From contig NZ_JAIHOM010000018.1 in the NCBI RefSeq assembly GCF_026130165.1, positions 1-47,209 of the forward strand: 47,209 bases of DNA. The letters are read 5' to 3'. The notes beneath the pieces are model-generated. The model had not been told where the DNA came from. It made no database searches and saw nothing but the letters and a program-made list of their open reading frames with translations. A program made the position numbers and the translations under genes. Numbering within the stretch: position 1 is the stretch's first letter; each line of letters begins with the position of its first letter. This document shows, in pieces, positions 5,894-15,746 of the stretch. The DNA is from Spirulina subsalsa FACHB-351. Its GTDB lineage: Bacteria > Cyanobacteriota > Cyanobacteriia > Cyanobacteriales > Spirulinaceae.

Positions 5894-6259
5894 ATGAAGT
5901 CAGATATTGTCGGTGAGGATTACCGAATTTTATATGATGAACAGGGCAATACAGTTGCTTTTTATGGTGAACTGAGTTTAAGTGGCTCAAAGGATTATGA
6001 GCCAATTAAGCAGTTGTTAGAAGAGGCAACGAGTGAAGAGCTAGAGCAGTTTACTTTAGATTTGAAAGAGTTATATTTTCTCAATAGTTCAGGAATTAGT
6101 ATGTTGTCTAAGTTTGTGATTGGGATGAGAAAGTCGGATACTCAATTGATTGTAATTGGTTCGGAGGAGATTCCTTGGCAGAAAAAATCTCTCTCCAATT
6201 TACAGAAGTTTTTACCTAGTTTGCAGTTAGTGATGGAGGCATCTGAGGAAACGAGTTGA
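5894..6259 (+). CDS. STAS-domain regulator, slr1659 type
   Basis: A 121-residue STAS (anti-sigma antagonist) domain. The conserved loop reads FLNSSGISML (residues 62-71); Ser65 corresponds to the serine phosphorylated in SpoIIAA-like proteins. It follows the ATPase-like gene by 33 bases, and gaggaggg lies just upstream of ATG, so they form one operon. The predicted role is to bind its upstream partner and release a target by phosphorylation-controlled partner switching. No sigma factor or PP2C phosphatase is present nearby, so the output is unknown. Confidence 0.82.
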   Translation: MKSDIVGEDYRILYDEQGNTVAFYGELSLSGSKDYEPIKQLLEEATSEELEQFTLDLKELYFLNSSGISMLSKFVIGMRKSDTQLIVIGSEEIPWQKKSLSNLQKFLPSLQLVMEASEETS

Positions 6260-6273
6260 GGGGGAATTAATAA

Positions 6274-7236
6274 TTAAGTAAAGGCCCAGAGGACTCGCTC
6301 TTGTCGGAAGGGGGCGGCGACTGTCTCGCCGATGTCGCTAATGGTGACTAAATCGGCTGGGGAAAGTTCAATCGTTGCGGCTTGGGCATTATCGAGGACT
6401 TGGCTGGCATAACGCGCTCCGGCGATCGCACAAGTTTGAGGTTGAGCGATTAACCAAGCGAGCGCCAACTGGGCTAGACTACAATCATAACGAGCGGCAA
6501 TGGGTCGCAATTGGTCTAAAGCGTCCTGCACTCGCCCATAGTGTTCGGGCTGAAAGAGTTTGTTCTGGTAACGATGATCTCCCTCCACAAATTGATGATC
6601 TCGTCCAAATTTCCCGGTTAAAAAGCCTTGAGCTAAGGAAGAATAGGCGAGAATTGTGATCTGATTTTCTACACAATAGGGCATTTGTTCTCCTTCAATT
6701 TGTCGCCAAAAGAGAGAATAGGGGGGCTGTAAACTCTCAATGGTGCCGTATTGTGCGGCTTCTTGGAGTTGGGGGAGGGAGAAGTTAGAGACTCCAATGG
6801 CGCGAATTTTACCCTGTTCTTTAAGGGTATTGAGGGCGTTCATGGTTTCTGCGATGGGAACAAGGGGAGTGTTCCATGTTCCGGCGGGCCAGTGGATTTG
6901 GTACAAATCGATATAGTCGGTTTGTAGGTTTTTGAGAGATCCTTCACAGGCGGCGATGACCTGATCATAGGCCAGATGGGTGGAGAAGACTTTGGAGGCA
7001 TAGACGGCGCGATCGCGCACATCCCCCAGCGCTTGGGCTACCATGCGCTCAGAATGCCCCTCTCCGTAGATTTCTGCGGTGTCAATGGTGGTGATTCCGG
7101 CCTCAAAGGCGGCTCGAATGGCTTTGATCGTTTCTTGATCTTCAATGCCCGCCCACATCCGTTTCCCAGCTTGCCACGTTCCCATGAGAATGGGGGTAAT
7201 TTGAAGGTCTGATGTTCCGAGTTGGCGTGTTTTCAT
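6274..7236 (-). CDS. Aldo/keto reductase
   Basis: A 320-residue NAD(P)H-dependent oxidoreductase with a TIM-barrel fold. The catalytic tetrad is visible: Asp52 and Tyr57 in IDTAEIYGEG, Lys82 in YASKV, and His115 in YQIHWP. The length and the GVSNFS motif fit the AKR family. The substrate cannot be inferred. ATG start at 7236. The gene is convergent with the STAS gene, whose stop is only 14 bases away, and lies downstream of the glycosyltransferase on the same strand. Confidence 0.9.
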   Translation of the reverse strand: MKTRQLGTSDLQITPILMGTWQAGKRMWAGIEDQETIKAIRAAFEAGITTIDTAEIYGEGHSERMVAQALGDVRDRAVYASKVFSTHLAYDQVIAACEGSLKNLQTDYIDLYQIHWPAGTWNTPLVPIAETMNALNTLKEQGKIRAIGVSNFSLPQLQEAAQYGTIESLQPPYSLFWRQIEGEQMPYCVENQITILAYSSLAQGFLTGKFGRDHQFVEGDHRYQNKLFQPEHYGRVQDALDQLRPIAARYDCSLAQLALAWLIAQPQTCAIAGARYASQVLDNAQAATIELSPADLVTISDIGETVAAPFRQERVLWAFT

Positions 7237-7273
7237 GAGTTATCCCTGATCCATAATCCGTTATTCAACGAGC

Positions 7274-8059
7274 TTAACCGACCTGAGTCAAGCGCAACAG
7301 GTGTTTTAAATAAATCCAGAAATGCTGGGCGTTGACTTTGCTCCATCCCGCGTGGCGTTTGCGAAAAATATACCCCACTTCACAGATGTTCTGGGGGGTG
7401 GTGCGGCTGAGAATTTCGAGGAGGATTTTGTAGCCAACGGGTTGAAAAGCAATGTTTAAGAGGGTGTGACGACGGATGAGAAAGTAACCACTCAGAGGAT
7501 CGGTAACGGACTGTTTGAGTTGAGGTAAGACGGAGAAACTGAGCCATTTTGCCCCCCTAGAGAGGATCCGTCGGATCAGACTCCAATCTTGACAGCCTCC
7601 GTTAGGAAGGTGACGACTGGCGATCGCTAAATCATGATGATGCTCCATGGCGGCAAGCAGAGTCAGCAAGGTTTCCGGGGGGTGTTGAAAGTCCCCATCC
7701 ATTACGCCTAACACTTGCCCCCGGGCGACTTGCCAGCCCCGCAGCACAGCCGAGGCTAGTCCTCGTTCCCCCAAACGACGCAAGACGCGCAGTTGAGGAT
7801 AATGGACTGTCAATTCTAAGGCGATCGCCCAGGTTTGATCCGGACTATCATCATCCACCACAATCAGTTCATAGTTTTGGGGAAGTGCCTGATCCAAAAC
7901 TCGCACTAATTCTGAGATTAAGAGACGAATATTCGGGCGTTCGTTGTAGGTGGGAATCACCAGCGAGAGGAAGAGGTTTGACCTCGGGGAGTCAGGAATT
8001 ATCCATGCTCCGGTGGGGACGGTTTCTAATACACCCGTGGCTAGAATACATTCGGTCAT
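7274..8059 (-). CDS. Family 2 glycosyltransferase, dolichol/polyprenyl-phosphate mannosyltransferase-like
   Basis: 261 residues from the preferred ATG at 8059. The GT-A core starts at about residue 30 with LSLVIPTYNE. VVDDDSPDQT (about 68-77) and MDGDFQHPPE carry the nucleotide-sugar and metal-binding aspartates, and SRHLPNGG and GYK motifs match DPM1-like enzymes. There is no C-terminal membrane domain, so this is the soluble short form. A frame opening at GTG 8134 would run into the 8137-8173 hairpin, which favours the internal ATG. It probably transfers a hexose to a polyprenyl phosphate; donor and acceptor are unknown. Confidence 0.85.
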   Translation of the reverse strand: MTECILATGVLETVPTGAWIIPDSPRSNLFLSLVIPTYNERPNIRLLISELVRVLDQALPQNYELIVVDDDSPDQTWAIALELTVHYPQLRVLRRLGERGLASAVLRGWQVARGQVLGVMDGDFQHPPETLLTLLAAMEHHHDLAIASRHLPNGGCQDWSLIRRILSRGAKWLSFSVLPQLKQSVTDPLSGYFLIRRHTLLNIAFQPVGYKILLEILSRTTPQNICEVGYIFRKRHAGWSKVNAQHFWIYLKHLLRLTQVG

Positions 8060-8191: not shown

Positions 8192-8542
8192 CTACAACCG
8201 TTTAAAGGCATCTAAATGTTCAAGATGCTGGGATTGTTGTTCTAAATTCACGGAAAGGCGATCGCATACAATCTCACACAACTTGAAAACACTCACATCG
8301 GTGATCTCGTAATAAACACTTACCCCTTGAGGTTGGCGCTTGACAATCCCTACCTGAGTCAGAATTTTTAGGTGTTTGGACACATTCGCTTGTCCGAGTC
8401 CTGTGACTTCAATAATCTCCGTTACGTTCTTTGCGCCAGATTTTAAACTACAAAGGATGTGCAAACGACTCACTTCAGACAAAACCTTGAAGTATTCCGC
8501 AATCCGGTTGAGTGCTTCTGGCGAAACCTGTGTTGTCAGCAT
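8192..8542 (-). CDS. ArsR-family transcriptional repressor, possibly sulfide/persulfide responsive
   Basis: 116 residues with a winged helix-turn-helix (GLGQANVSKHLKILTQVGIVKRQPQGVSVYYEI, residues 48-80). Three cysteines are present: Cys31 in LHILCSL and Cys89 and Cys93 in the C-terminal helix. SqrR/BigR-type sulfide sensors use one cysteine in the second helix and one in the fifth, and the spacing here is compatible. The gene is divergent from a persulfide dioxygenase operon, with a near-perfect palindrome between them. A role as repressor of that operon, relieved by persulfide, is a well-supported inference; a metal-sensing ArsR is the alternative. Confidence 0.85.
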   Translation of the reverse strand: MLTTQVSPEALNRIAEYFKVLSEVSRLHILCSLKSGAKNVTEIIEVTGLGQANVSKHLKILTQVGIVKRQPQGVSVYYEITDVSVFKLCEIVCDRLSVNLEQQSQHLEHLDAFKRL

Positions 8543-8576
8543 TTTGCAATAATGTGCAGCTATTTTGATTTTCCTC

Positions 8577-8607
8577 TTGACACCATATTACCATATGGTA
8601 GTATGAT
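8577..8607 (+). promoter_or_regulatory. Promoter with ArsR-type operator for the persulfide operon
   Basis: A consensus -35 (ttgaca, 8577-8582) and a -10-like tatgat (8602-8607) are separated by 19 bases. Between and overlapping them lies an inverted repeat with one mismatch at 8584-8605, whose core taccatatggta (8589-8600) is a perfect 12-bp palindrome. A repressor bound there would block RNA polymerase. This fits control by the adjacent ArsR-family protein. Confidence 0.65.
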
Positions 8608-8669
8608 AAATATGAAAAACATAGATATCATTTAAGTGTACCTTGTTTTAACCCAGAGGAGGCCGCCAA

Positions 8670-9368
8670 ATGCTGTTCCGTCAACTCTTTGACCCAGAAA
8701 CCAGTACCTATACTTATCTCATTGCAGATTTAGAGACGAAAGAAGCGATCTTAGTGGATCCCGTGTTGGAGCAAGTGGATCGGGATTTATCATTGATTCA
8801 GGAGTTGGGGTTAACCCTGCGTTATTGCCTTGAAACCCATATTCACGCCGATCACATTACCGGAACCGGGAAATTGCGGGATTTAACAGGATGTCAGGGG
8901 ATTGTTCCAGAACACGCCATTGCCGCTTGTGCTAACCGTCATATTAAAGATGGGGAAGTCATTACAATGGGGTCCATTGAGGTGAAAGCCCTTTTTACCC
9001 CAGGCCATACGAACTGTCACATGACCTATGCCGTCAATGGCACCCACTTATTAACCGGGGATGCCTTGTTTATTCGCGGATGTGGTCGCACCGACTTCCA
9101 AAGCGGAGATCCCGGTCAACTGTACGATTCCATCACCGGGTGCTTGTTTACCTACCCCGATGAAACCCTGATTTATCCCGGCCATGACTACCGAGGACAA
9201 ACAGTTTCAACGGTGGGGGAAGAGAAGAAATTTAATCCTCGTTTAGCGGGACGCGATCGCACTTCATTCATTGAACTGATGAATAGTTTAAACCTCCCCG
9301 ACCCCCAAAAGATTATGGAAGCGGTTCCGGCTAATCAAAAATGTGGCAAAGTCCCCGCATTATCCTAG
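8670..9368 (+). CDS. Persulfide dioxygenase, ETHE1-like metallo-beta-lactamase fold
   Basis: 232 residues. The metal-binding motif THIHADH covers residues 56-62; His57, His113 (PGHT) and Asp131 (TGDALF) match the iron ligands of ETHE1. GRTDFQSGDP (139-148) and the IYPGHDY motif are typical of the persulfide dioxygenase branch rather than glyoxalase II. The enzyme oxidises glutathione persulfide to sulfite. It heads an operon with a haem protein, DUF3122 and rhodanese. aggagg lies close upstream of ATG. No sulfide:quinone oxidoreductase is present in the window. Confidence 0.92.
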   Translation: MLFRQLFDPETSTYTYLIADLETKEAILVDPVLEQVDRDLSLIQELGLTLRYCLETHIHADHITGTGKLRDLTGCQGIVPEHAIAACANRHIKDGEVITMGSIEVKALFTPGHTNCHMTYAVNGTHLLTGDALFIRGCGRTDFQSGDPGQLYDSITGCLFTYPDETLIYPGHDYRGQTVSTVGEEKKFNPRLAGRDRTSFIELMNSLNLPDPQKIMEAVPANQKCGKVPALS

Positions 9369-9411
9369 TCTGAATCTTTCCTTTGTCCACACTCTATATG
9401 AGGTTCGTTTT

Positions 9412-10017
9412 ATGCGCTTTCTCCCTTCTGCCTTCATCTTAGGCGTGAGTTTATGCCTTGTGTTCTTATTCAGTTTCCCCAAGATGGCACGGGCCGATAT
9501 TCCCCCCGAAAACTTAGCCCAAGTTGTCCAAGAAATTGAATATTTAGATCAAATGCGTTCCGGACTCGCCTCCACCCTCGAAGGTCGTAGCGAGGAACCC
9601 ACCCCCCAAACCATGCAGGAAGTATGTAAACCTGTGGGGATGCGGGCCAAGCAGTTGAGTCAGGAAAACGGCTGGCAAGTGAAGCAAATAGCCAGTAAAT
9701 ACCGCAATCAGGAGCATAAACCCGACTCCCCCCAAGCGGTGCAAGCCTTAAACCGTTTTAGTGAAGACCCCGAGTTATTGGCCTTTTGGCAAAAAGACAC
9801 CCTACAGGGTCAGGAGGGACTGCACTATTTCCGACGGATTAATGTAGAGGCCAGTTGTTTAGCCTGTCACGGGGCTAAAGATAGCCGACCCAAATTTGTC
9901 AAGGAGAAGTACCCCCAAGACTTAGCCTTTGATTTCCAAGTTGGCGACCTGCGCGGGATGTATTCCGTATTTGTGCCGGACGTGCAACAGGCCTTACAAC
10001 AAGCTTTAACGGAGTAA
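9412..10017 (+). CDS. Exported c-type haem protein, Tll0287-like (DUF3365)
   Basis: I chose ATG at 9412, which gives 201 residues with a signal peptide (hydrophobic 6-22, likely cleavage after ARA at about 28). A single haem-attachment site CLACH is at residues 149-153. The sequence around it matches the DUF3365 family, whose structural example, Tll0287, is a cyanobacterial haem-c protein with a PAS-like fold proposed to be a redox sensor. Residue content suggests a periplasmic or lumenal location. It lies 43 bases after the dioxygenase and 4 bases before the DUF3122 gene, so it is operonic. It might carry electrons from, or sense, sulfur chemistry (inference). Confidence 0.85.
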   Translation: MRFLPSAFILGVSLCLVFLFSFPKMARADIPPENLAQVVQEIEYLDQMRSGLASTLEGRSEEPTPQTMQEVCKPVGMRAKQLSQENGWQVKQIASKYRNQEHKPDSPQAVQALNRFSEDPELLAFWQKDTLQGQEGLHYFRRINVEASCLACHGAKDSRPKFVKEKYPQDLAFDFQVGDLRGMYSVFVPDVQQALQQALTE

Positions 10018-10021
10018 AACG

Positions 10022-10549
10022 ATGTGTAAGGGGTTTCTAGCTCTTAATTCTCTATTGAGCGCGATAAAAGGTCAATTGAAACGGCTTTTTTGGGTGGGGT
10101 GCATCCTGTTGTTAAGTCTGATGATGGTCGGGCAACCTGCGATCGCCGAGATCCGCCAACTGCCCGAACGTGCCGACCAGATGCTCTACCAATCCCGGCA
10201 AACCTTGCAAGATCAAAACGGCAAAACATGGCAAGTGGTGCTGTTTAAACGAGTTAAACCAGATCAGCCCAGCCTAACTCACTTGCGCTTAGTGGGATTC
10301 CCCGGCATCACCGTCACCCATCCCCATCCCCTACTCTTGGCTGCTGGGTCCCTAGAATTGAGTGCCAGTGATGATTTTGCCGAACAATCACCCTCCCCCA
10401 ACGTTGGACAGTATGACTTAACCGAAATTATCCCCCAACTGCCCGGGGTGAACTTTCTCCGTCTTAATGTTCCCACCCTTGAACAACCCGTAGAATTGCG
10501 CGTTCCCTTCTTTGTATTGCAAGAGTGGAAAGAACTCAACCAACGCTAA
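10022..10549 (+). CDS. DUF3122 exported protein
   Basis: 175 residues. The first 42 form an export signal: basic start, hydrophobic VGCILLLSLMMVG, and AIA as a likely cleavage site. The remainder is a compact beta-rich domain containing WQVVLFKRV, HLRLVGFPG and LRLNVP. This fits DUF3122, a family of unknown function found mainly in cyanobacteria. It begins 4 bases after the haem gene stop, which strongly implies co-translation. A function in the sulfur operon is only suggested by context. Confidence 0.8.
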   Translation: MCKGFLALNSLLSAIKGQLKRLFWVGCILLLSLMMVGQPAIAEIRQLPERADQMLYQSRQTLQDQNGKTWQVVLFKRVKPDQPSLTHLRLVGFPGITVTHPHPLLLAAGSLELSASDDFAEQSPSPNVGQYDLTEIIPQLPGVNFLRLNVPTLEQPVELRVPFFVLQEWKELNQR

Positions 10550-10602
10550 CCCATTCCGTCTTTTTGTTCTTCCTTTTCGACACTTTTAGGAGTTTATAAA
10601 CT

Positions 10603-11136
10603 ATGACTAACGTACAAAATCGTCTAAAAAACCTCGATCCCGCTACCTTATACGCCGCTTTAGAACAGGATAAAGTCTATCTCATTGACGTGCGTGAACC
10701 TTCCGAATTTGCCGGGGAACGGATTCACGGAGCAACACGAGTGTCTTTATCCAGTTTTGAGGCTGATCGCATCCCCCAAGATGCCCAAAAACAATTAGTT
10801 CTCTACTGTCAACATGGCAACCGTTCCAGTCAAGCTGCCCAAAAACTCTTTATGGCCGGATTTGAAAAAGTCAGCCATCTTGAAGGAGGACTCAACAACT
10901 GGAAACAACAAGGTTATCCCACCTTTGTTAACAAAAAAGCCCCCATTAGTATTATGCGGCAAGTGCAAATTATCGCCGGATCTCTCATGTTAACTGGGAC
11001 AATTTTAGGCGCATTTGTTTCCCCCTGGTTTCTGTTGCTCAGTGGTTTTGTTGGTGCCGGATTAACCTTTGCCGGAGTTACCGGAACTTGTGCAATGGCG
11101 CGGATACTCTCTAAACTTCCTTATAATCAAGTTTGA
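10603..11136 (+). CDS. Rhodanese with C-terminal DUF2892 membrane domain
   Basis: 177 residues. The rhodanese domain (about 8-108) carries DVREPSEFAGERIHGA and the active loop CQHGNRS with Cys69, which would hold a persulfide. The C-terminal 60 residues contain two hydrophobic hairpin segments (about 115-165) of DUF2892, as in E. coli YgaP. It is the last gene of the persulfide operon, 53 bases after DUF3122, with taggag before ATG. It may transfer sulfane sulfur at the membrane, complementing the dioxygenase. Confidence 0.9.
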   Translation: MTNVQNRLKNLDPATLYAALEQDKVYLIDVREPSEFAGERIHGATRVSLSSFEADRIPQDAQKQLVLYCQHGNRSSQAAQKLFMAGFEKVSHLEGGLNNWKQQGYPTFVNKKAPISIMRQVQIIAGSLMLTGTILGAFVSPWFLLLSGFVGAGLTFAGVTGTCAMARILSKLPYNQV

Positions 11137-11236: not shown

Positions 11237-11412
11237 GTCGGGTGTCGGGTGTCGGGAATCGGGAATCGGAAACAATTGATAATTGATAATTGTCAATTGT
11301 CAATTATCAATTCCCTATTACTTCTCCCCTGCCCCCCTGCTCCCCTGCTCCCCTGCCCCCCTGCTCCCCTGCTCCCCCATTCCCGACTCCCCGAGTAATT
11401 CACCAAGCCCTA
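11237..11412. repeat. Composite repeat tract ending in a MITE-type terminal repeat
   Basis: From left to right: short tandem gtcggg(t/a)(g/a)-type units (11237-11270), attgataatt and caattgtcaatt units (about 11272-11310), then ctcccctg-type 8-mers (about 11322-11377). The right edge (11395-11412) is the inverse of agggcttggtgaattact, two mismatches from the terminal repeat at 23264. The last three bases (11410-11412) form the TAG stop of the minus-strand Hsp70 gene. No left terminal repeat is seen. Confidence 0.6.
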
Positions 11413-12987
11413 TTGTAGTTTGGCGATCGCACCTTTTTCGACTAACACCTGTTCGGTTAACAAATCCTTGACTGTGGCTAATAATACCCGTTGCTCGTTG
11501 ACTTCAAATTCTACCGAAATCCGATCCATGCCCACCTGTCCACAGGGATTCAAATGGGCGACACAAACCTCCGCATGATGACTGTCAAGGGAGCGATACT
11601 GAGATTGACGATGGAGTTTACTACTCGACATTCGCCCCAATTCATCATAGGTGACTTCAGCTTGGCTCACTTCTGCCACTTCCCCAATATCGAGGCGAAT
11701 TTCCCTCTGTCCTTCCCGGGCTACTTGTAAGGTTAAGGGATCGTCCCGTTTACAAGGATATTGACTACCCCGATTAAACAGGGTGAAGTAGGAGTAAGTG
11801 CGGGTGGTGGGCTCCCACAGACGGAGGGCGTAACTGTGGCGTAAATAATCTTCTATGGCCTCGATTTGGGTGAGGGCTAAAGCCCCGTGACAGACGGCTT
11901 CAAAAGGTTTGCCCAGTTGAACTCGCGATCGCCCAAAATAGGAAACAATCAACTGTTGCACCGCCGGAATCAAACAACTCCCCCCCACCAGTAACACCTG
12001 TTCAATATCACTTTTTTGGACTCCTTTCCCCAAGGCCGTCATCACCACTTCATCGAGGGCTTCCCGCAACTGCTCTAAAAACTGGTGTCGTTCGAGAATT
12101 TCCTCCAACTGGTACCGCTCTAAACTCAAATCGTAGGACATAAAATTTTCTTCATCGAGCCAACTTTCCGCCGCATTTTCTTCCCGAGATAGGCGAATTT
12201 TTAAGCGTTCTGCTAACTCTAGTAAATTCTGCCAACTCACTCCATCCACACTATCCCGAGCGGTTCCCTGTTGTCTGAGATAGTCTTCCACAATCCAAAT
12301 ATCAATATCTTCCCCCCCCACATAAGCATCGGATTTCGCGATCACTTGAGCAGAAACCGCTTGTTGGTTGCCCATTGCTCCCTCGGTGCGGACTAAACTC
12401 AAATCGAGGGTACCGCCCCCAAAATCAATCACCAATACTAACGCGCCGGGTTGTTGCACGGCATAACCGAGGGCGGCGGCGGTAGATTCATCAATAAAGC
12501 GTCGTTCTTTTACTCCTAATTGATCGGCAAAATCATTAAACCAGTCCAGATACCGTTCAAATGCGCCCACAGGCACCGTAAAAATGAGTTCTGAGGGGGT
12601 TATATCTTGGTTTTGAATATTTTGCCAGATTTGCTGTAAAAACCGTTCTGAGACAGTCTGAGCATCGTAGGTGAAGCCGTCGAGTTGACGGGGGGGCATT
12701 TGGAAATCGGCGGCTAACTCCCGTTTGAAGCTTTTAAACAGGCGTTCAGGTTCAGTGAAACCGAAACGTTGCGATCGCACTTGCTCGCCAATTAAAATCT
12801 TGTCAGAGGCCTGCACATAGAGCAAACTGGGGATTACAGGCACATCTACCCAACTCCCCTCTTTACTCTTGCTGCGAAACAAACGGGACATTTCCCCGAA
12901 GCGCAGAGTTTTCGGGGCTTGGGTATCAGGTTCTAAAAAACTAACGATGGTGTTGCTGGTGCCGAAATCAATAGCAACGGTGGTCAT
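11410..12987 (-). CDS. Hsp70-family protein
   Basis: 525 residues. The N-terminal phosphate-1 loop VAIDFGTSNTIVSF (4-17), VIDFGGGTLDLSLV (about 185-198) and VLLVGGSCLIPAV (about 328-340) are the actin/Hsp70 ATPase signatures. The C-terminal substrate region is shorter than in DnaK, so it is a divergent Hsp70 rather than DnaK itself. ATG start. It is the last gene of a minus-strand operon with a GrpE-like protein and DUF2997. Its TAG stop codon overlaps a repeat-element end. Client proteins are unknown. Confidence 0.9.
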   Translation of the reverse strand: MTTVAIDFGTSNTIVSFLEPDTQAPKTLRFGEMSRLFRSKSKEGSWVDVPVIPSLLYVQASDKILIGEQVRSQRFGFTEPERLFKSFKRELAADFQMPPRQLDGFTYDAQTVSERFLQQIWQNIQNQDITPSELIFTVPVGAFERYLDWFNDFADQLGVKERRFIDESTAAALGYAVQQPGALVLVIDFGGGTLDLSLVRTEGAMGNQQAVSAQVIAKSDAYVGGEDIDIWIVEDYLRQQGTARDSVDGVSWQNLLELAERLKIRLSREENAAESWLDEENFMSYDLSLERYQLEEILERHQFLEQLREALDEVVMTALGKGVQKSDIEQVLLVGGSCLIPAVQQLIVSYFGRSRVQLGKPFEAVCHGALALTQIEAIEDYLRHSYALRLWEPTTRTYSYFTLFNRGSQYPCKRDDPLTLQVAREGQREIRLDIGEVAEVSQAEVTYDELGRMSSSKLHRQSQYRSLDSHHAEVCVAHLNPCGQVGMDRISVEFEVNEQRVLLATVKDLLTEQVLVEKGAIAKLQ

Positions 12988-13064
12988 TGCCTTAAACTAG
13001 GTAATAGGGAATGGGGACTCGGGAATAGTTAATGCACACAGAGTTAAGGGATCAAGATGGGGGG

Positions 13065-13985
13065 TTAGGTTTTGGGCAAGGTGCGACTGACCTTCGCAGG
13101 GCAGAGAATGCGATCGCCCTCTCGGTAGCCAACAAAGCGAATATACACCAAATCCCCCGCTTGAATATCATTGCGATCGGCTTGATGAATTTGGGGGTCA
13201 AAAATCACCTGTTCCCAAGCAGAACCAATCGGTTCATACCCCCAAGCATTGAGTAAATTTTTCAGAGGGGTGAACAAAGCAATTAAATTTTTAGCGGGTA
13301 AATTGGGTTTAGCCTCCGCCATAGTGCAAGCCGTGGGGAAATTCATCAACAGGGTTTGTAACTGCTCAAAAACCTCAGTCTTAATATCCCCGCGAGTTTG
13401 CTCGCTCCCCTTTTGTAATTCTGCCCGCATCCGACGACATTGTTGTTGCAGTTGTTGCACCTGATAGTTTGCCTCATCCAAGGTCTGATCCTGTGCGGTG
13501 GTCTGTTCTTCCAATTGGGCTACCTTAGCTTGAGCCGTTGCTAAACCCTCTTCGGCTGCCGCTAATTGCTGTTTGAGCATCACGGTTTCATCATACAAAC
13601 TTTGGCATTTTTGATGTAACTTGCCAATTTCTTGGAAAGCTGCCCCCAAGGACGGGAAGGAAATACCAAACTGTTGGAGCAACTCTTCTAGGGTCCAGTT
13701 GAGCGTCGTTGCTAAACGTTGCAATTGTTGCAACTCTAGTTTTTCAATCGACCCTTGACGCAATTGTTGTAACTCCCGAGGAGTAAGACCCGACTTGCGT
13801 TGTAGAGCCGTCCAACTGGTAAGACTCGCCTGCAAAAGGCGATCGCGCAACAATTCATCTCCCGGATAGGTACAATCTAGATTCTCCTCTCGCGCCATCC
13901 GTGAACCCACCACCGTCAACAGCGCCAGAGTCCCCCCGAACCAAAGAACGACACCGAACCAAAAAAGATTGGGGTCATCAACCAT
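13065..13985 (-). CDS. Membrane-anchored GrpE-like protein with HTH-like segment
   Basis: 306 residues with an unusual architecture. A transmembrane helix occupies about residues 5-27. A helix-turn-helix-like region follows (about 45-108, with SGLTPRELQQLRQG and LQRLATTLNWTLEELLQQFG). A coiled coil spans about 115-200. The C-terminal half resembles GrpE: a helical part, then EPIGSAWEQVIFDPQIHQAD and GDLVYIRFVGYREGDRILCPAKV, like the beta-wing of GrpE. GrpE proteins release ADP from Hsp70, and the next gene 77 bases downstream is an Hsp70, so a dedicated membrane-bound exchange factor is likely. An agagga motif precedes ATG by about 9 bases. Confidence 0.72.
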   Translation of the reverse strand: MVDDPNLFWFGVVLWFGGTLALLTVVGSRMAREENLDCTYPGDELLRDRLLQASLTSWTALQRKSGLTPRELQQLRQGSIEKLELQQLQRLATTLNWTLEELLQQFGISFPSLGAAFQEIGKLHQKCQSLYDETVMLKQQLAAAEEGLATAQAKVAQLEEQTTAQDQTLDEANYQVQQLQQQCRRMRAELQKGSEQTRGDIKTEVFEQLQTLLMNFPTACTMAEAKPNLPAKNLIALFTPLKNLLNAWGYEPIGSAWEQVIFDPQIHQADRNDIQAGDLVYIRFVGYREGDRILCPAKVSRTLPKT

Positions 13986-13999
13986 GATGCTATCCTCTA

Positions 14000-14224
14000 C
14001 TATCCCTGCTGTTCCAGCGATTGCGATTGGGTTTCCGTTTGAGTGAGGATATTCGATTCTCGGTAATAGTCCGGGAGAAATTCTTGGCTTTCAACTTCAC
14101 CCATTGCCTGTTCAATCTCCTCCGTCACCTTTGTACAGTGGGCGCCGGCAATCCCATCAACAACCGTTTCAACAATTTTGCCATCTTTGCCGATCCGGTA
14201 TTCAATTTTCTGGTATTCTGCCAT
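14000..14224 (-). CDS. DUF2997 protein
   Basis: 74 residues from ATG at 14224, preceded by ggag. The sequence IEYRIGKDGKIVETVVDGIAGAHCTKVTEEIE is the DUF2997 core, including the conserved cysteine and G-x-x-C-T motif. DUF2997 proteins in cyanobacteria often sit near DUF1257 (Ycf35) and ferredoxin genes; neither is in this operon. It is first in the operon, 14 bases before the GrpE-like gene. The function is unknown. Confidence 0.8.
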   Translation of the reverse strand: MAEYQKIEYRIGKDGKIVETVVDGIAGAHCTKVTEEIEQAMGEVESQEFLPDYYRESNILTQTETQSQSLEQQG

Positions 14225-14621
14225 CTTGACTCCAATAAAAATCAGGGTATTCGGAAAAACACTCCAGAGCAGCCACTCTAGTTTCCGATTGTATCTCGAC
14301 ATCTTCCTCAATGTATCAGGGGGTGAAACATTCAGGCTGATCTTTTAGCGGAAGATTCCATCTTTCTCCTGTTCTGCCCCCCACTTTGGCAGGATGTGAT
14401 TACAATATGGCTATAAAACTCATCCCAACCGCACTCTGGCCTCAGAAAAATCATCAATTAAGCGGCGCACCGCTTAGGAGTTTTCTCCCTCCAGAGTCCA
14501 AGTCCAGAAATCCCCCCTACCCTACAACGTGGGTTAGCGGTGGGATGATGCAACCTCAAGAAACTAAATCTTGCTAAAGTCTTCAAATGTGATTGCCGAA
14601 CTCAGTTAAGTTAAACAGTCT
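14225..14621. other. Divergent intergenic region with several hairpins
   Basis: About 400 bases between DUF2997 (-) and the CAP gene (+). It contains small stems: aagcgg/ccgctt around a 4-nt loop near 14459-14474, and ctgcc/ggcag near 14375. A third, accc/tgggt, lies near 14530. A 63-codon frame at 14386-14577 has no recognisable features. It may carry a structured leader or small RNA, but I match no known family. Confidence 0.3.
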
Positions 14622-15746
14622 ATGCACCGGATCCAACTTTATGCGATCGCCCTCCTAAGTGGTTTAACCGTGGTCATACCCCTGACCACCCCCCTCTTAG
14701 CGGCATCTAACAGTTCTTCCCTAGAACCTCAAACCCCCGTCCGAGTCAGTCAAACTCCCCCCGGAGTGGCTGCCCCAGAATTGTCCCCCTTTGAAACCCG
14801 CGTATGGCGCGAAATTAACAGTCTTCGCACTAATCCTTCCGCCTATGCCGACTGGTTAGAATCCCAGCGCGTCCACTTTAACGGCAACCTCCTAGAAATT
14901 CCCGGAGAACCGACCATTACAACCCAAGAAGGAGTCGATGCCCTCGATGAAGCCATTCGCTTCCTGAGAGAAGCCCGTCCCCTCTTGCCCTTACAATTGT
15001 CCCCCGGAATGTCTAAAGCCGCCCAAGACCACGTTGAGGACCAAGGGCAAACCGGACAAACTGGCCATACAGGCAGTGATGGCAGTGCCTTTTTTGAGCG
15101 CTTGAGTCGCTATGGTCTAGTCAACGGCCCGGCCGCAGAAAATATTACCTACGGGGAAGAGTCCGCCCGTATCATGGTGATGCGCTTGATTTTAGACGAT
15201 GGTCTACCCCAACGAACCCAGCGCAATAATCTATTCAATATTGATTTTAAATTCATGGGGTTAGCTTGTGGTTCACACCCAACCCTAACGAATATGTGTA
15301 CCATCAATTTGGCGGGGGCCTATCAAGAACAAACCGTTGCCACACCCCCCCAAACTCCTCCCGAAACGCCCCCGACAACTCCCTCTGACCCTGACACAAC
15401 GCCGACTCCTCCTACTAGCACCTCGGCCGGGGTAATTTTAATTCAAGAAGGAGTGCTACAGGATGGAGACCCGATGTACGAGGATGGCAGTCTTTATCAT
15501 GAACATCGTTTTCGAGGAGAAGAAGGCCAAGCGGTCACCATTCGTCTAGAAAGTGATGAGTTTGACACCTTCTTAGCGGTTTTGAATGAAGATGGCACCG
15601 AAGTTCTGGCGCAAAATGATGACATCAGTGAAGATGATACCAACTCCTTAATTCAAATGACCCTGCCCTACAATGGCATCTATCGGGTGTTTGTCAATGG
15701 TTATCACCCAACCGATCGGGGACGTTATCGGTTAGTGATTTACTAA
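14622..15746 (+). CDS. Exported CAP-domain protein with C-terminal PPC-like domain
   Basis: 374 residues. A signal peptide (hydrophobic 6-27, LLAA near the end) precedes a CAP/SCP domain (about 58-235) with the bacterial motif REINSLRTNPSAYADWL, the histidine-containing HVEDQGQTGQTGH and PAAENITYG. A Pro/Thr-rich linker (about 240-268) leads to a beta-sandwich resembling the pre-peptidase C-terminal domain, with acidic repeats (DEFDTFLAVLNEDG). CAP proteins are extracellular and of varied function; the acidic loops suggest calcium binding. The gene is divergent from the DUF2997 operon. Confidence 0.88.
   Translation: MHRIQLYAIALLSGLTVVIPLTTPLLAASNSSSLEPQTPVRVSQTPPGVAAPELSPFETRVWREINSLRTNPSAYADWLESQRVHFNGNLLEIPGEPTITTQEGVDALDEAIRFLREARPLLPLQLSPGMSKAAQDHVEDQGQTGQTGHTGSDGSAFFERLSRYGLVNGPAAENITYGEESARIMVMRLILDDGLPQRTQRNNLFNIDFKFMGLACGSHPTLTNMCTINLAGAYQEQTVATPPQTPPETPPTTPSDPDTTPTPPTSTSAGVILIQEGVLQDGDPMYEDGSLYHEHRFRGEEGQAVTIRLESDEFDTFLAVLNEDGTEVLAQNDDISEDDTNSLIQMTLPYNGIYRVFVNGYHPTDRGRYRLVIY

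Follow-up and report, generated by a model that had tools for sequence, protein, structure and literature searches.

In the DnaK-GrpE cycle, as set out in PMC10803776, a client is held after ATP hydrolysis, the GrpE head opens the nucleotide-binding domain (NBD), ATP displaces ADP and the client leaves, and in the known DnaK-GrpE structures described there the GrpE stalk also touches lobe IA and the substrate-binding domain (SBD). A 2021 review (PMC8215388) distinguishes three prokaryotic Hsp70 types, DnaK, HscA and HscC, and suggests that the specialised ones are free of the need for an exchange factor; the hallmarks it gives for HscC are a shortened lid helix, an NBD deletion and DjlB/DjlC neighbours. 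Here we describe a locus of the cyanobacterium Spirulina subsalsa FACHB-351 (assembly GCF_026130165.1, contig NZ_JAIHOM010000018.1; the window is the whole stretch analysed, 47,209 nucleotides long), where a DUF2997 gene, a GrpE-like gene and the gene of a divergent Hsp70, termed Hsp70-A, follow one another head-to-tail on the minus strand, with gaps of 14 bp between the first two and 77 bp between the last two. This three-gene unit is real and conserved, and it is probably functional; the reading that we favour, and hold to be rather probable, is that a GrpE-type exchange factor of its own serves a dedicated Hsp70 on the cytosolic side of a membrane.

In the open-access literature we found no role for DUF2997 and no description or tested role of the three-gene unit, for which a paper in a subscription journal could exist. 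The main text of a 2025 review of GrpE-like factors (PMC12987570) contains no mention of cyanobacteri-, transmembrane or helix-turn-helix.

Domains and folds of the GrpE-like protein and Hsp70-A

The three genes lie on the minus strand at the places given to them by the initial annotation, and each passes its Pfam cut-off (Table 1); for the GrpE-like protein the families are PF01025 (GrpE, 37.1 bits against a cut-off of 25.8) and PF13443 (HTH_26, 25.9 against 22), the latter standing for a helix-turn-helix (HTH). Its AlphaFold2 model, built from 18 aligned sequences (mean predicted local distance difference test score, pLDDT, 81; predicted template modelling score, pTM, 0.38), presents a long helix at residues 5-31, the HTH at 41-105, a coil at 111-225 and a beta head at 251-300, with block pLDDT above 90 in the HTH and the head. 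Foldseek ranks 1 to 12 for this model were held throughout by GrpE structures or models (E-values from 8e-4 to 1.1e-2, one of them below 1e-3), and VIA-align, which by its own note covers parts of the model unevenly and allows no inference on families absent from its list, placed residues 160-302 onto 1dkg_B and 8gb3_E with a Z of 9.4; this comparison of stalk and head covers the GrpE-like protein of the present locus only. The initial annotation had proposed a transmembrane helix, an HTH-like segment, a coiled coil and a GrpE-type C-terminus. All of them are present, with the amendments that the HTH is inconstant in the family (see below) and that the whole GrpE stalk and head are found rather than the C-terminus alone; a fold unrelated to GrpE was not seen, and a C-terminus only vaguely like GrpE was ruled out, as stalk and head both match in the two structural comparisons.

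Searches by sequence reach less far. With the GrpE-like protein as single query no GrpE was returned from the PDB sequences, and a family profile brought up 1dkg_A second, after an unrelated coiled coil, at an E-value of 0.11, which is weak if taken alone. Among the relatives, those of loci L043, L064 and L088 stay under the PF01025 cut-off, and those of L061 and L202 give no GrpE match at E 0.01. The head residues H267, Q268, R283, F284, G286, Y287, A297 and S300 are invariant in all 72 non-redundant operon members, and the residues of the head differ from those of the canonical GrpE of the same genome. A transfer by sequence of the contact residues given for M. tuberculosis in PMC10803776 onto the head was abandoned, since loop lengths differ.

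The Hsp70-A model (pLDDT 84.6, pTM 0.78) gave Hsp70s as its listed PDB matches, DnaK being the best at E 5e-34. In this model the alpha lid is absent, the protein stopping at residue 525 after an all-beta C-terminal domain. The ATPase-site equivalents D7, K88, E167, D188 and T193, whose DnaK counterparts we take to be the catalytic residues, are found in 72/72 sequences. Where the DnaK2 encoded in this genome has its hydrophobic interdomain linker, Hsp70-A has a D-Y/F-L-R-H-S-Y-type motif, with D380, L382, H384 and Y386 in 70 of the 72 sequences and gaps in the remaining two. The HscA equivalog models are not reached (83.5 against 708.55 and 88.1 against 620 bits).

According to PMC8215388, two salt bridges of the DnaK cleft, K55-E267 and R56-E264, slow ADP release; HscA is described there as having neither of them, likewise most HscCs, and both types are thought to be independent of GrpE. 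In Hsp70-A the equivalent of K55-E267 is retained (residue 71 basic in 64/72, E260 in 72/72), so an exchange factor would have work to do, and E264 of the other bridge aligns with E257 in 65 of the 72 sequences. Half-retained bridges would fit an Hsp70 to which an exchange factor is still of use and which has an interface of its own.

Table 1. Features of the three-gene unit (positions in the window).
Feature	Position	Strand	Basis
DUF2997 protein, 74 amino acids (ATG start)	14000..14224	-	heads the unit; PF11211 at 63.1 bits (cut-off 24.1), taken on the longer open reading frame 14000-14311
GrpE-like protein, 306 amino acids, membrane helix-HTH-coiled coil-GrpE stalk and head	13065..13985	-	PF01025 and PF13443, AlphaFold2 model, fold matches
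N-terminal membrane helix, residues 5-31, predicted N-out/C-in	13893..13973	-	AlphaFold2 helix; hydropathy maximum 1.99 at residue 8
Cro/C1-type HTH, residues 41-108	13662..13865	-	PF13443; residues 41-107 placed on the 434 repressor by VIA-align (Z 8.2)
Coiled coil and GrpE stalk helix, residues 111-225	13311..13655	-	model; GrpE alignment begins at residue 160
Short-helix element and beta head of the GrpE part, residues 231-302	13080..13295	-	model, Foldseek, VIA-align
Hsp70-A, lidless Hsp70, 525 amino acids	11410..12987	-	PF00012 104 bits against a cut-off of 20.6, over residues 104-373
Hsp70-A nucleotide-binding domain, residues 1-374	11866..12987	-	model, PDB fold matches
Hsp70-A beta substrate-binding domain, residues 375-523	11419..11865	-	all-beta in model; aligns with DnaK SBD-beta

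Conservation and history of the unit

Neighbours were counted by tblastn, on the same strand and up to 900 bp downstream or 2600 bp upstream of the GrpE-like gene (limits chosen for this analysis), in 80 named loci, which are the best 80 of 125 named relatives. An Hsp70 follows in 64 of the 77 loci with that much sequence, a DUF2997 relative precedes in 63 of 69, and a by-eye count puts the order of GrpE-like gene and then Hsp70 in over 20 named genera, a recurrence far beyond chance. The dedicated, divergent Hsp70 that had been postulated is supported, and DUF2997, earlier offered as a possible cofactor or client, proves a regular partner. Family-A cut-offs (family A being the family of the present unit) were set in this analysis at 44% identity or more for Hsp70-A, G245 being a fragment, and at 49 bits or more for DUF2997-A; at these values 26 genomes have Hsp70-A, with GrpE-like-A in 22 and DUF2997-A in 23 of them, and DUF2997-A occurs alone in 2 genomes. 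In four of the 23 (G172, G177, G193 and G282) DUF2997-A does not adjoin the Hsp70, and since the two are co-present though apart, their association exceeds linkage; by such association DUF2997 is likely a partner of the unit.

Across 292 sampled genomes of the phylum, the GrpE-like protein and a related Hsp70 occur together in 102 and are both absent from 178, 6 genomes having only the former and 6 only the latter, with lists that differ in threshold (E 1e-3 for the GrpE-like protein, 1e-40 for the Hsp70) and a co-occurrence confounded by phylogeny, many absences falling in one small-genome family (f25) and outside the class. The 108 GrpE-like genomes include the weak G228, G252 and G241 (E 4e-4 to 8e-4), perhaps canonical GrpE. 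A DUF2997 match is present in 144 of the 292.

In the 80 named loci, 79 GrpE-like open reading frames (ORFs) were called and scored for a membrane helix (mean hydropathy of at least 1.6 over 19 residues) and for an HTH (a hidden Markov model, HMM, built for this analysis). The helix is found in 75 and the HTH in 44 of the 79: 43 ORFs carry both, 32 the helix only, and four miss the threshold of 1.6 narrowly, at 1.45-1.59, one of them bearing the HTH. At L139 the GrpE-like ORF is masked by a longer one on the opposite strand. With the protein of this locus added to the 79 ORFs, Lys and Arg are more numerous after the helix than before it in 57/80, equal in 23/80 and fewer in 0/80, and from sequence the helix is predicted to leave the bulk of the protein in the cytosol (N-out/C-in). 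The membrane location put forward earlier agrees with this near-constant helix. The helix-plus-HTH state requires 8 changes on the tree, and branches with good support force 5 or more of these, so the HTH was gained or lost repeatedly. We thus count the membrane helix, and not the HTH, among the core features of family A. Two family-A members of the phylum sample (L061, L063) have the HTH and lack the helix.

As side observations, the GrpE-like proteins of L059, L060, L062, L064 and L065, which the tree nests inside family A, have a membrane helix and a long coiled coil, with no Hsp70 of this kind adjoining, and a protein encoded at L087:5743-6357 has a membrane helix and HTH followed by a coil, with no GrpE head seen. 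WD40-fused Hsp70-A-like proteins of 849-868 amino acids, with the repeats at the C-terminus, occur at L197:6001-8550, L198:4951-7548 and L199:6001-8607, the WD40 label coming from Pfam for L198 and assigned by eye for L197 and L199.

A soluble HTH-coil-GrpE branch (family B) is split from family A at 95/87 support, and the fork holding only family B has 86/59, in a tree that excludes L052, L066, L087 and exact duplicates, has canonical GrpE on a very long branch and is rooted for drawing only. Family B is widespread, and so is a second Hsp70 of the present kind (its lidless status taken from length and alignment). In the family-B loci examined no Hsp70 of this kind is nearby, except in G036, where the GrpE-like gene is directly upstream of one. 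In G026 and G044, of the same phylum and another class, a GrpE-like gene lies just downstream of such an Hsp70; these genes score 81 and 96 bits with the family HMM and give no HTH match, and in G026 the longest open frame of the GrpE-like gene overlaps the end of the Hsp70. Neither genome yielded a match to PsaA/B, and this suggests that the partnership did not begin with thylakoids; G044 is 95% complete with 7% contamination, and the pairing without PsaA/B rests mainly on G026. The pairing of GrpE-like protein and Hsp70 is probably old. A broader view, which we put forward tentatively and think doubtful, is that Cyanobacteriota possess a further, so far unrecognised kind of Hsp70 machine that predates oxygenic photosynthesis, made of lidless Hsp70s with GrpE-type factors of their own, which carry a Cro-type HTH at the N-terminus and in one branch a membrane helix, and which would pin exchange to membrane or DNA. 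On this view the HTH-GrpE protein of the soluble branch may be a transcription factor that senses the state of the Hsp70 directly.

A proposed membrane-held exchange factor and its rivals

In the favoured reading, in which contact, dimerisation, exchange, membrane-side chaperoning and the role of DUF2997 are inferred, the GrpE-like protein would dimerise through its stalk and be held in the membrane by the single N-terminal helix (N-out, C-in). Its beta head would face the NBD of the neighbouring lidless Hsp70 and open it, with release of ADP, and an exchange factor so tethered would bring ADP/ATP exchange, and hence client release, to the side of the membrane. With no lid, Hsp70-A should hold clients weakly and briefly, which would suit it to a small range of substrates, either membrane proteins or the cytosolic domains of these, more than to general refolding, and DUF2997 would probably be an adaptor or an obligate client of Hsp70-A.

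Several results weigh against this reading. At the level of whole families, the GrpE-like protein scores at best 28.5 against 176 bits with the canonical GrpE equivalog of NCBIfam, far below the cut-off, and Hsp70-A does not reach the DnaK equivalog (109.9 against 648 bits). The GrpE-signature segment (DnaK 290-295, of TGPKH type in DnaK2) is altered in Hsp70-A, with its length unchanged, and is preceded by a four-residue deletion in nine family-A sequences aligned; R56 of the second cleft bridge aligns with S72, which is S or A in 64/72 sequences, and at the position matching DnaK R167, which PMC8215388 gives as a J-domain contact, R is found in only 8/72. In view of the altered GrpE signature and J contact, the interfaces of Hsp70-A with the GrpE-like and J proteins, if real, would have been rebuilt. 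A J-domain gene is not part of the unit, as the J protein of L159, used as query, matched L159 alone.

Covariation lends the favoured reading no support. In 72 of 82 operon pairs retained (below 97% identity, effective number 24), head-to-NBD pairs are not enriched, making up 4 and 0 of the top 100 where 4.4 and 4.9 are expected, and a block joining stalk and lobe IA has its equal in 267 of the 4406 other blocks under a tree-aware test, and in 1096 under a second measure. The top covarying pairs link stalk residues 182-187 with Hsp70 residues 18-21. These seem to align near the R73-E20 contact of PMC10803776, a proximity noticed post hoc and placed on the DnaK side partly by residue numbering, and the tree-aware test does not single them out.

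Adjacency, too, has its exceptions. The Hsp70 is missing within 900 bp in 13 of the 77 loci with room for it; in L135 and L168 it lies further on, and in others, e.g. L102 and L103, it is truly separated. A search of 13 genomes in which the locus is non-adjacent or ends with its contig showed Hsp70-A elsewhere in 10 and only the other kind of Hsp70 in three (G292, G299 and G302). Four genomes with Hsp70-A are without GrpE-like-A, and GrpE-like-A is found without Hsp70-A in one genome, or in seven if the wider set is taken, which adds the long-coil type (G056, G109, G119, G145), placed inside family A by the tree, and fragments (G123, G157). In G245, G121, G125 and G187 the Hsp70-A copies seem broken or split, so the unit can be lost.

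Part of this evidence would suit a GrpE-like protein that has become a membrane scaffold, recruiting the lidless Hsp70 with its exchange activity lost and its fold retained for docking: on Hsp70-A the GrpE signature is replaced and the upper salt bridge altered, no head-to-NBD covariation is seen, and the head residues are unlike those of the canonical GrpE of the same genome. However, the head is strongly conserved and the lower cleft bridge, the one that slows ADP release, is retained, and we consider a pure scaffold unlikely. Since the known stalk contacts reach lobe IA and the SBD, a GrpE could remain active with its head altered. The Cro-type HTH invites a different interpretation, namely that HTH-GrpE proteins are Hsp70-sensing regulators in which the GrpE part recognises Hsp70 in its free or ADP-bound form and a DNA-binding HTH makes expression track chaperone load, with family A as a membrane-bound version. 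Family B is usually apart from Hsp70 genes, as a regulator could be, and its recognition-helix region is more constrained, one position being Q in 17 of 23 soluble proteins. In family A, on the other hand, that position is among three variable ones of the recognition helix (entropy 2.6-3.1 bits, 29 non-redundant sequences), the net charge of the HTH is alike in both families (about +3.5), and no HTH was found with our HMM in 35 of the 79 ORFs, most of which retain the operon; there is, in our estimate, only a slim chance that this interpretation is right.

A link with photosynthesis is equally a minor contender. The unit would then help thylakoid complexes to be assembled or repaired, together with an AAA+ ATPase and Ycf35, which join it in part of the lineages. 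These two genes (AAA+ ATPase and DUF1257/Ycf35, families by Pfam) stand further upstream on the same strand in 14 of the 80 loci, Ycf35 is on the opposite strand in 9 of the 80, and a DUF2997-ycf35-fed7 cluster has been described in Synechocystis (PMC4284462). The link to AAA+ ATPase and Ycf35 is nevertheless not general, and the pair of GrpE-like protein and Hsp70 also occurs in genomes without a PsaA/B match; we judge a photosynthetic role improbable, while it may still apply to family A alone. Least credible is a conflict or defence system with Hsp70 and GrpE as a switch, on the model of the GAP1-N2 GTPase systems, in which HSP70 and GrpE genes are reported for about 14% of the neighbourhoods, mainly in actinobacteria and firmicutes (PMC7159879). 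The WD40-fused relatives of Hsp70-A at three loci would fit such a system, but no GTPase was found among the seven neighbours scanned with Pfam and the gene set is stable across genera, which makes it very improbable indeed.

The exchange factor tethered at the membrane remains our choice, and the interpretation given in the initial annotation is right in outline, with contact and exchange at its core putative. What is observed is that a specialised lidless Hsp70 travels with a GrpE relative bearing a membrane helix in nearly all members of family A; if the reading is confirmed, it would show that an Hsp70 cycle can be positioned by anchoring its exchange factor, and would offer a first handle on DUF2997.

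Surroundings of the unit and known systems

The host assembly (G000) comprises 5.26 Mb in 279 contigs, with the unit on contig C272, and the nearest named relatives by GrpE-like protein are mostly Spirulina. The canonical grpE-dnaK2-dnaJ cluster of the same genome sits apart, on contig C143, in line with the separateness from DnaK and GrpE that had been supposed. Also encoded are two more full-length DnaK-like matches, a second Hsp70 of the present kind (C143:82563-84149, 39% identity to Hsp70-A), a soluble HTH-GrpE protein (contig C76, locus L088) and a second DUF2997 that adjoins Ycf35 (contig C188); a short Hsp70 match at G000:C78:17136-17360 has 38 bits and an open frame of 349 amino acids. 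DUF2997 and Ycf35 gave no significant match among PDB sequences.

Elsewhere, at L159:3363-6579, genes for a J-domain protein, an AAA+ ATPase (best PDB matches CDC48/VCP), Ycf35 and DUF2997 stand consecutively ahead of the GrpE-like gene, and at L090:4496-5794 and 6030-7697 the second Hsp70 of this kind in the genome is opposite a J-domain and TPR protein, which is possibly its J partner. The Synechocystis protein slr0086, termed 'similar to DnaK' and ethanol-induced in PMC3564720, is at a guess of this Hsp70 kind.

A promoter scan stayed at chance level (4 against 3.2) and terminators numbered 7 against 3.9 (sd 2.4), with nothing usable. At window positions 8192-11136 an ArsR-type regulator (labelled by eye) is divergent from genes for a metallo-beta-lactamase hydrolase, a Tll0287-like protein, DUF3122 and a rhodanese with YgaP-type membrane helices (Pfam labels for these four), a cluster that looks like one for sulfide or persulfide handling. 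At 14622-15746 a CAP-domain protein with a sub-threshold match to the pre-peptidase C-terminal domain is encoded divergently from the unit, and a cluster of ORFs judged by eye to be related is upstream of the GrpE-like gene in 8 of the 80 named loci, including L102.

Compared with the DnaK-GrpE pairs of known structure (E. coli 1DKG, Geobacillus 4ANI, M. tuberculosis 8GB3), the unit shares the two-protein partnership, the GrpE stalk, short-helix element and beta head, and an Hsp70 made of an NBD with intact ATPase residues and SBD-beta. It differs in having a membrane helix and HTH where GrpE has a disordered N-terminus, in the addition of DUF2997, and in an Hsp70 without alpha lid, with another interdomain linker and with the GrpE signature replaced. 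RodZ and MreB are alike in that a protein with HTH and membrane helix is paired with an actin-fold ATPase; there, however, no GrpE part is present, HTH and membrane helix come in the opposite order along the sequence, and MreB forms filaments. The mitochondrial import motor PAM with GrpEL1/Mge1 also brings an Hsp70 and a GrpE to a membrane, but according to PMC12987570 the Tim44 scaffold anchors Hsp70-GrpEL1 there, whereas here the GrpE-like protein has a membrane helix of its own. The GAP1-N2 GTPase systems, as presented in PMC7159879, likewise include a dedicated HSP70-GrpE gene pair, in a subset with an HSP70 that has no peptide-binding domain; they are mainly actinobacterial and firmicute where the present unit is cyanobacterial, and the GTPase has no counterpart among the seven neighbours scanned.

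The nearest functional parallel, by analogy, would be HscC with its tail-anchored J-proteins DjlB and DjlC, a specialised bacterial Hsp70 that, in the account of PMC8215388, is probably drawn to the plasma membrane by an anchored co-chaperone. The lack of any lid argues against Hsp70-A being an HscC, and the anchored component is another one: the anchored partner of HscC is the J-domain protein, and use of GrpE by HscC is considered unlikely (PMC8215388), whereas in the present unit it is the exchange factor that would be anchored.

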